A DNA stretch of 64,000 bases from Natranaeroarchaeum aerophilus (GTDB taxonomy: Archaea > Halobacteriota > Halobacteria > Halobacteriales > Natronoarchaeaceae): NCBI RefSeq assembly GCF_023638055.1, contig NZ_JAKRVY010000004.1:62001-126000 (forward strand), given 5' to 3'. The notes beneath the pieces were generated by a model. It saw only the letters and a program-made list of their open reading frames with translations. It was not told the DNA's origin and did not search any database. Positions within the stretch are counted from its first letter, which is position 1, and each line of letters opens with the position of its first letter. Made by a program: the position numbers and the translations under genes. Below are positions 46,064 to 47,840 of this stretch, piece by piece.

Positions 46064-47335
46064 CTACTCTTCGAGCCGCGTCCGGACGCTCTCTGCGTGT
46101 GCTTCCAGTCCTTCGGCTTCCGCAAGCGTCGTGATCGTCCCCCCCAGGTCCGCCAACGCTTCCCGATCGAGTCGCTGAACGGTCGTCGATCGAACGAACG
46201 TGTCGACGGAGAGCCCCCCGGTCAGTTTTGCGCCGCCCCCGGTCGGGAGGACGTGGTTCGTCCCACTGGCGTAATCGCCCGCTGCGACGGGCGTATACGG
46301 GCCCAGAAAGACGCTCCCGGCGCTGTCGATCCGATCGAGCACCGCTTCGTCGTCCTCGGCGACGATCGAGAGGTGTTCGGCAGCATACTCCTCGGCGAAG
46401 AGTATCGCCTCGCTCATCGATCGGGCGTGAAGGATCGCGCTTTCGTCACCGGCCAGCGCGTCGCGGATCACGTCCGATCGGGCGCGTTCGTCGATCCCTG
46501 CCTCGACTGCCTCGCCGATCGCTTCGGCAAGGGATTCGTCATCCGTCACTGCGACGACTGATGCGTTGGGATCGTGTTCGGCCTGTGCGAGCAGGTCCGC
46601 CGCAATGTACTCGGGATCTGCTGTCCCGTCCGCGATGACGAGAATCTCGCTCGGCCCTGCGAGGAAGTCGATGTCGACGTCACCACGTACTTCGGCTTTG
46701 GCTGCGGTAACCCATCGATTACCCGGCCCGACGACCTTCCCAACGCGCTCAATGGACTCGGTACCGTATGCGAGCGCGGCGATCGCCTGAGCCCCGCCCA
46801 CACTGTAGACCCGATCCGCACCTGCCGCGTGGATCGCTGCGAGTGTCGCCGGATTGATCTCGTCGGCCGGCGGCGTCGCGACGGCGACGTCCTCCACACC
46901 TGCGACCTTCGCGGGGACGACACCCATAATCGCACTGGATGGGTACGCCGCAGTACCACCGGGGGCGTAGACGCCGACGCTGTCGATCGGCCGGAACCGA
47001 CGACCCAGCTCTCGCCCGTCGAACTCGTCTCGCCAGTCTTCGGGGACCTGTGCCTCGTGGAACTCGCTGACGTTAGCGACGGCCGTATCGATCGCCCCCC
47101 GGAGCTCGTCGTCGATCTCCTCGTACGCGTGCTCGACCCGATCGGTGATCTCCAGACTGCCGACCTGAACGTCGTCAAATTCCCGGCAGAACTCCCGTAC
47201 TGCGACGTCTCCTTCCTCCTCGACGCGTCCGACGATTTCGGCGACGTCGGAGCGAATCTCGTCGACCCCCGAATCGCGGTCGAACAGACTCGTCCGCTCG
47301 CCAGGTGAGAGGTCCGCGACTGCTTTGTAGTTCAT
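46064..47335 (-). CDS. hisD: Histidinol dehydrogenase
   Basis: 423 residues from the ATG at 47335 (MNYKAVADLSPGERTSL). Family blocks: SVGVYAPGGTAAYPSSAIMG near residue 118, VGPGNRWVTAAKAEV near 215, AGPSEILVIADG near 232, AEHLSIVAEDDE near 335, and SGTNHVLPTGG near 370 with catalytic and Zn-binding His. It oxidises L-histidinol to L-histidine in two NAD-dependent steps, ending histidine biosynthesis. No other his genes are adjacent. Upstream is the structured RNA at 47398-47580. Confidence 0.95.
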   Translation of the reverse strand: MNYKAVADLSPGERTSLFDRDSGVDEIRSDVAEIVGRVEEEGDVAVREFCREFDDVQVGSLEITDRVEHAYEEIDDELRGAIDTAVANVSEFHEAQVPEDWRDEFDGRELGRRFRPIDSVGVYAPGGTAAYPSSAIMGVVPAKVAGVEDVAVATPPADEINPATLAAIHAAGADRVYSVGGAQAIAALAYGTESIERVGKVVGPGNRWVTAAKAEVRGDVDIDFLAGPSEILVIADGTADPEYIAADLLAQAEHDPNASVVAVTDDESLAEAIGEAVEAGIDERARSDVIRDALAGDESAILHARSMSEAILFAEEYAAEHLSIVAEDDEAVLDRIDSAGSVFLGPYTPVAAGDYASGTNHVLPTGGGAKLTGGLSVDTFVRSTTVQRLDREALADLGGTITTLAEAEGLEAHAESVRTRLEE

Positions 47336-47397
47336 ACAAGGTGTTACGATGGGTGAGCAAAACCGTTTTCCGTATCGATCGCTCTCGTCGTGAAGAA

Positions 47398-47580
47398 TGT
47401 CGCCCGGAACACTAACGGCCGGTATCATTGCTGGCGGCGTGCCGTCTCAACCGGGAAACCCTCGTGCCGGGCTGGCACTGCGGCAGGTGCCTGTGTTTTG
47501 TGCCGCGTGTCGCATGCCTGGGTTCGCCGCGCGTCATCGCGTCCGTGTGGACGTACTCGGGCGGGGACAAAGGCACGCAC
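47398..47580 (-). ncRNA. Putative double-hairpin H/ACA guide RNA
   Basis: Two hairpins read on the minus strand, each followed by ACA. Hairpin 1: lower stem TGCGTGCCT (47579-47571) with AGGCATGCG (47519-47511), 9 bp including two wobbles, then ACA at 47510-47508; upper stem CCGC/GCGG; apical GTCC-ACAC-GGAC. Hairpin 2: lower stem GCCCGG/CCGGGC, then G-ACA at 47400-47398; upper stem CCGGT/ACCGG; apical GGC-ACGCC-GCC. Both carry GAG on the 5' side and ATGA on the 3' side, as in k-turns. The unpaired pockets are TTGTCC plus CGAACCC in hairpin 1. A T-rich element near 47601-47609 lies ~25 nt upstream. Would guide pseudouridine formation with Cbf5. Target not identified. Confidence 0.45.
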
Positions 47581-47624
47581 TGGGTCTATGCCCGGCAGTT
47601 CAAAAAGGGTGTCGTCACGGGGTG

Positions 47625-47840
47625 CTATTCGTTCTCCAGTTCAATCGCACCGACTTTGCCCAGTACTGAGAGGACAAAGACGAGCGCAGCGAGTACGAAT
47701 CCACCGGCAAACAGCGGCGCCGCAACGGTCTGGGCGGTCTCAAAGCCAAGGACCAGTCGCGTGGTTCCGAGTACCAGAAAGCTTCCCACCGCGAGGAGAC
47801 CGGCGAGTGCCGCGAGTTTGAGTATCGTCTGCTCGTGCAC
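47625..47840 (-). CDS. Two-helix membrane protein of unknown function
   Basis: 71 residues (MHEQTILKLAALAGLLAVGSF...) with two hydrophobic helices (residues ~7-30 and 40-62) and an acidic ELENE tail. Small haloarchaeal membrane proteins of this shape are common. It lies 70 nt downstream of the beta-propeller gene on the same strand, so may belong to that unit. No motif. Confidence 0.6.
   Translation of the reverse strand: MHEQTILKLAALAGLLAVGSFLVLGTTRLVLGFETAQTVAAPLFAGGFVLAALVFVLSVLGKVGAIELENE

Follow-up and report, generated by a model that had tools for sequence, protein, structure and literature searches.

Haloarchaeal H/ACA guide RNAs with two hairpins, designated HP1/HP2 (Hvo1/Hvo2), have been reported in H. 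volcanii, H. marismortui, H. salinarum and H. walsbyi (PMC2584109, PMC4652768), and the Haloferax motifs are listed as experimentally validated (PMC4652768). The haloarchaeal hairpins are described as homologs of stems II and III of Pf7, separated by a long spacer (Grosjean et al. 2008, PMC2584109). The HgcG/Pab40/Pf7 RNA (RF00064) of Pyrococcus and other archaea resembles the haloarchaeal RNA in its hairpins 2 and 3 and in the targeting of helix 69 by its last hairpin; however, it consists of three adjacent hairpins, whereas the haloarchaeal RNA lacks the first one and has a spacer. The equivalent pair of pseudouridines in helix 69 is guided in eukaryotes by the H/ACA snoRNAs U19 and snR191 (PMC2584109), which are comparable by target site but have the eukaryotic H-box/ACA architecture.

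The locus studied here lies in a stretch of 64,000 nucleotides (the window) of Natranaeroarchaeum aerophilus contig NZ_JAKRVY010000004.1; positions are those of the window and all features are on the minus strand unless otherwise stated. It is almost certainly the haloarchaeal two-hairpin H/ACA guide RNA HP1/HP2. It has in common with HP1/HP2 of Haloferax volcanii the two hairpins, the long spacer and the targets Psi2621, Psi1956 and Psi1958 (Haloarcula numbering); only the sequence details and the gene neighbourhood differ, the RNA being located here directly upstream of hisD. The Haloferax volcanii RNA is named sR-h45 in later work. The identity with the HP1/HP2 of PMC2584109 is based on the targets, the two-hairpin layout, the long spacer and the named species. 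The RNA is thus already known in haloarchaea (2008, 2015) and is not a new kind. The original prediction of an archaeal H/ACA guide agrees with the covariation, the invariant pockets and ACA, the three targets, the homology to HgcG and the protein machinery: Cbf5, Nop10, Gar1 and L7Ae are all found in the genome, over the curated cut-offs.

The gap between the start of hisD and a small membrane ORF of 71 aa (47625-47840) is 289 nt, the same length as first noted. The hisD ORF, which is the downstream neighbour, extends from 46064 to 47335, with its start ATG at 47335. The longest hisD ORF begins at 47428 (46064-47428) and overlaps hairpin 2; the true start is likely 47335 (MNYKAVADLSPGERTS) rather than 47428. 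Across haloarchaea the hisD neighbourhood of the RNA is partly conserved: hisD is found within a few kb of it in about 20 loci (including L036, L071, L072, L101, L119, L133 and that of Halobacterium salinarum), and is not adjacent to it in most of the loci fetched.

Each of the two hairpins comprises a lower stem, a pocket, an upper stem, K-turn letters and an ACA; the double H/ACA-type hairpin first read at 47398-47580 is seen at 47508-47580 and 47398-47473. Hairpin 1 (HP1, Hvo1-like; 47508-47580) has its ACA at 47508-47510 and hairpin 2 (HP2, Hvo2-like; 47398-47473) at 47398-47400; both are supported by covariation and a target scan, and by the models R1 and R2, respectively. In hairpin 1, the 5′ guide strand GUC (47566-47568) is invariant in 85 sequences and pairs with the target GAC, and the 3′ guide strand AACCCAG (47518-47524), of which AACCC is invariant, forms 7 bp with the target CUGGGUU. 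Its K-turn and apical stem-loop (47534-47558) contain GAG (47556-47558) with GAUGA (47534-47538); GAG and AUGA are invariant in the 85 sequences and the G-C pair of the K-turn (alignment A1, columns 26/50) is present in 85/85. In hairpin 2, the 5′ guide strand GAGGGUU (47457-47463) pairs with GACCCUC of helix 69; AGGGTT is invariant in 74 sequences, and at least 90% have the leading G. The 3′ guide strand GUUAGUG (47410-47416) is invariant in the same number of sequences. The K-turn and apical stem-loop of hairpin 2 (47425-47448) contain GA (47447-47448) with AAUGA (47425-47429), where UGA is invariant, GA nearly so, and the apical stem is 100% paired. The box 3′ of the lower stem is ACA or ATA in nearly all aligned sequences, and the last A of the ACA varies barely or never, like the letters of the pocket and the K-turn. 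The upper stem of hairpin 1 has an extra closing C-G pair past a bulged C/A (A1 columns 17/65, 85/85). The 16 nt originally counted between the upper stem and the ACA of this hairpin is correct as a count; the functional distance is 14 nt, because this conserved pair closes the upper stem.

The pairing search of the pockets against rRNA, proposed earlier as a check, matched three known 23S pseudouridine sites. Hairpin 1 is a predicted guide for the equivalent of E. coli 2586 in 23S rRNA: its target in the organism's own 23S is CUGGGUU-[U]A-GAC (core GGGUU-UA-GAC), with 10 bp. Within GGGUUU the target uridine is the third U, at position 2604 on the reverse complement of L032; PMC2584109 and the sequence make it the counterpart of E. 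coli 2586 and Haloarcula Psi2621. In the conserved register the only 10-bp match in 16S plus 23S is this known Psi site, and none of 3000 shuffled pockets matched a known site equally well. Under relaxed registers, two more 10-pair matches are found in the 23S locus (3063 and 938), 13 and 16 nt from the ACA, respectively; both require misplaced pockets. The target string GGGTTCG-UN-GGACAA given at first is incorrect, because the top of the pocket had been placed too deep in the upper stem, by 2 nt on the 3′ side and 1 nt on the 5′ side, and hairpin 1 with those boundaries yields no known target. Concerning hairpin 2, a scan of all registers gives 10 Watson-Crick pairs solely at the helix-69 uridines corresponding to E. 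coli 1915 and 1917 (Haloarcula Psi1956 and Psi1958), for which it is a predicted guide. The ACA distance is 16 nt for 1915 (GUUA) and 14 nt for 1917 (UAGU), and 1 of 3000 shuffled pockets matched a known site equally well. Two alternative folds of Hvo2 have been described for this pair of sites (PMC4652768).

The minimum free energy (MFE) of the 201-nt region is unremarkable (z = -1.10; 27 of 200 shuffled sequences fold equally well). Folding energy alone is no evidence for an RNA here, as it is not unusual for the base composition, and comparative evidence was therefore needed. In a DNA search of 59 relatives, the region is found in almost every good haloarchaeal genome (E about 1e-9 to 1e-99), and the conserved DNA forms two separate blocks, divided by a stretch that varies. 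About 150 haloarchaeal loci contain both hairpins. More than 100 loci were retrieved from public genomes by an exact-pattern scan; almost all are on contigs with haloarchaeal names, among them Haloferax marinum, Haloferax profundi, Halobacterium salinarum, Haloquadratum walsbyi and Natrinema as well as several Haloarcula. One pattern-scan locus (L105) is on a MAG contig labelled Halobacteroidaceae bacterium. In another MAG contig (L042, PXSV01000010.1), near its end, HP2 is located at about 119-195 on the plus strand and HP1 at about 580-653 on the minus strand; this split arrangement is probably a misassembly or an inversion.

Non-redundant alignments of 85 HP1 and 74 HP2 sequences were used, with the H/ACA structure written by hand. 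The cells of the paired columns are paired in 96.1% (HP1) and 96.3% (HP2) of cases. Changes on both sides of a pair, which had been suggested as a test, occur in 141 cells of HP1 and 55 of HP2, numbers reached by 0 of 500 shuffles; slid controls gave at most 21 and 10, respectively. Lower stem, pocket and upper stem are kept by base pairing.

The Rfam search of the window and the region gave no H/ACA match; the window contains a tRNA match only, and the C/D-box matches were regarded as chance. Searched against the organism's own genome, RF00064 has no match at the locus (best score 11.8 bits, elsewhere; cut-off 77). The models R1 and R2, built on haloarchaeal sequences of HP1 and HP2, score 80.8 bits (E 1.4e-16) at hairpin 1 and 94.5 bits (E 1.5e-19) at hairpin 2, the latter being the sole match of R2 in the genome. 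Both models also match other archaea of the phylum: of 15 stretches taken from such genomes, 14 contain both hairpins, which are adjacent in most. The Rfam HgcG (Pab40) model matches 5 of these 15 stretches, 3 of them over its cut-off. HP1 and HP2 fall on the second and third hairpins of HgcG, and R1 and R2 lie inside the RF00064 matches in L167, L168 and L171, which reproduces the homology to stems II and III of Pf7 stated in PMC2584109.

Upstream of hairpin 1, a promoter (47587-47615) consists of a BRE/TATA-like element, ACGACACCCTTTTTGAA (47599-47615), whose TTTTT is at 47602-47606, and a -10 WW element, TA (47587-47588). Among 125 loci, the region upstream of HP1 has A-rich letters, a TTTAA-like box and, about 16 nt further on, an AT pair; these AT peaks keep a fixed distance to hairpin 1. 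The motifs fit the description of haloarchaeal promoters (CGAAA/TTWT/WW; PMC4983044), and the T-rich element noticed upstream of the 5′ end at the outset is a conserved promoter element. Just past the second ACA, T is richer (3.9 vs 2.1 per 10 nt). The spacer (47474-47507) contains a small hairpin of its own (GCGGCA 47501-47506, UGCCGC 47480-47485). In 122 loci it is 0-253 nt long and its sequence is unconserved; a small hairpin, or two of them, forms in nearly every spacer (mononucleotide shuffles: mean z -2.45, n=109). In an early-branching relative placed in the same order (L170, G018:C16), HP1 and HP2 adjoin with no spacer. Since the hairpins are adjacent in this relative and in other archaea, the spacer probably arose within haloarchaea. 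That this self-folding spacer has its own role, e.g. separating the two RNPs under high-salt conditions or base-pairing with pre-rRNA, is an unlikely though conceivable idea.

Other explanations of the region were also considered. A hisD leader or regulatory element (attenuator or riboswitch-like), instead of an independent guide RNA, would fit the position directly upstream of hisD in the genus and the roughly 20 loci with hisD nearby; however, most of the fetched loci have no adjoining hisD, the element has its own promoter, about 63 nt separate its 3′ ACA from the hisD start, and the pockets fit known rRNA sites, all of which make such a leader very improbable. Open frames do span the element in the present genome, and it could be coding, either as the ORF 47390-47821 on the plus strand or as an N-terminally longer hisD reaching 47428. 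Against this, no reading frame at all stays open through 31 of 122 homologous elements, the spacers vary between 0 and 253 nt, and conservation tracks base pairs rather than codons; a conserved ORF, named in advance as a finding that would count against the RNA, fails on the first two of these points, and a coding origin is extremely improbable. Chance folding of GC-rich intergenic DNA would account for the MFE z of only -1.1 and for the lack of an Rfam match at the locus, but it is refuted by the conservation, the covariation, the invariant pockets, the targets and the shuffled-pocket test, and its probability is practically nil.

As an HP1/HP2 guide RNA, the element would be transcribed from its own promoter, as the Haloferax literature suggests. 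L7Ae would be expected to bind the K-turns, and Cbf5-Nop10-Gar1 the pocket and the ACA. GUC and AACCCAG of hairpin 1 would then pair on either side of U2586 (E. coli) of 23S rRNA, and Cbf5 would form a pseudouridine in the peptidyl-transferase loop. GAGGGUU and GUUAGU of hairpin 2 would bind helix 69 in either of two registers that overlap, bringing U1915 or, in the other register, U1917 to the active site; a single hairpin may thus produce both pseudouridines. We infer from the Haloferax literature that the RNA modifies these 23S sites.

The present analysis contributes the genome-specific targets and the corrected pocket boundary of hairpin 1, together with the covariation statistics, the promoter and, for HP2, the two-register count. 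A real, usually unannotated gene is thereby settled, and the targets which could not be named at first are assigned. The haloarchaeal form is missed by the Rfam HgcG model, so the RNA will frequently lack annotation; a haloarchaeal model such as R1/R2 would annotate it in the many genomes for which the Rfam HgcG model fails. For the annotation of hisD, gene callers may stretch the ORF into the RNA gene. The two-register pocket (16 and 14 nt) offers a simple explanation, open to test, of how a single hairpin may serve two uridines that are two bases apart.
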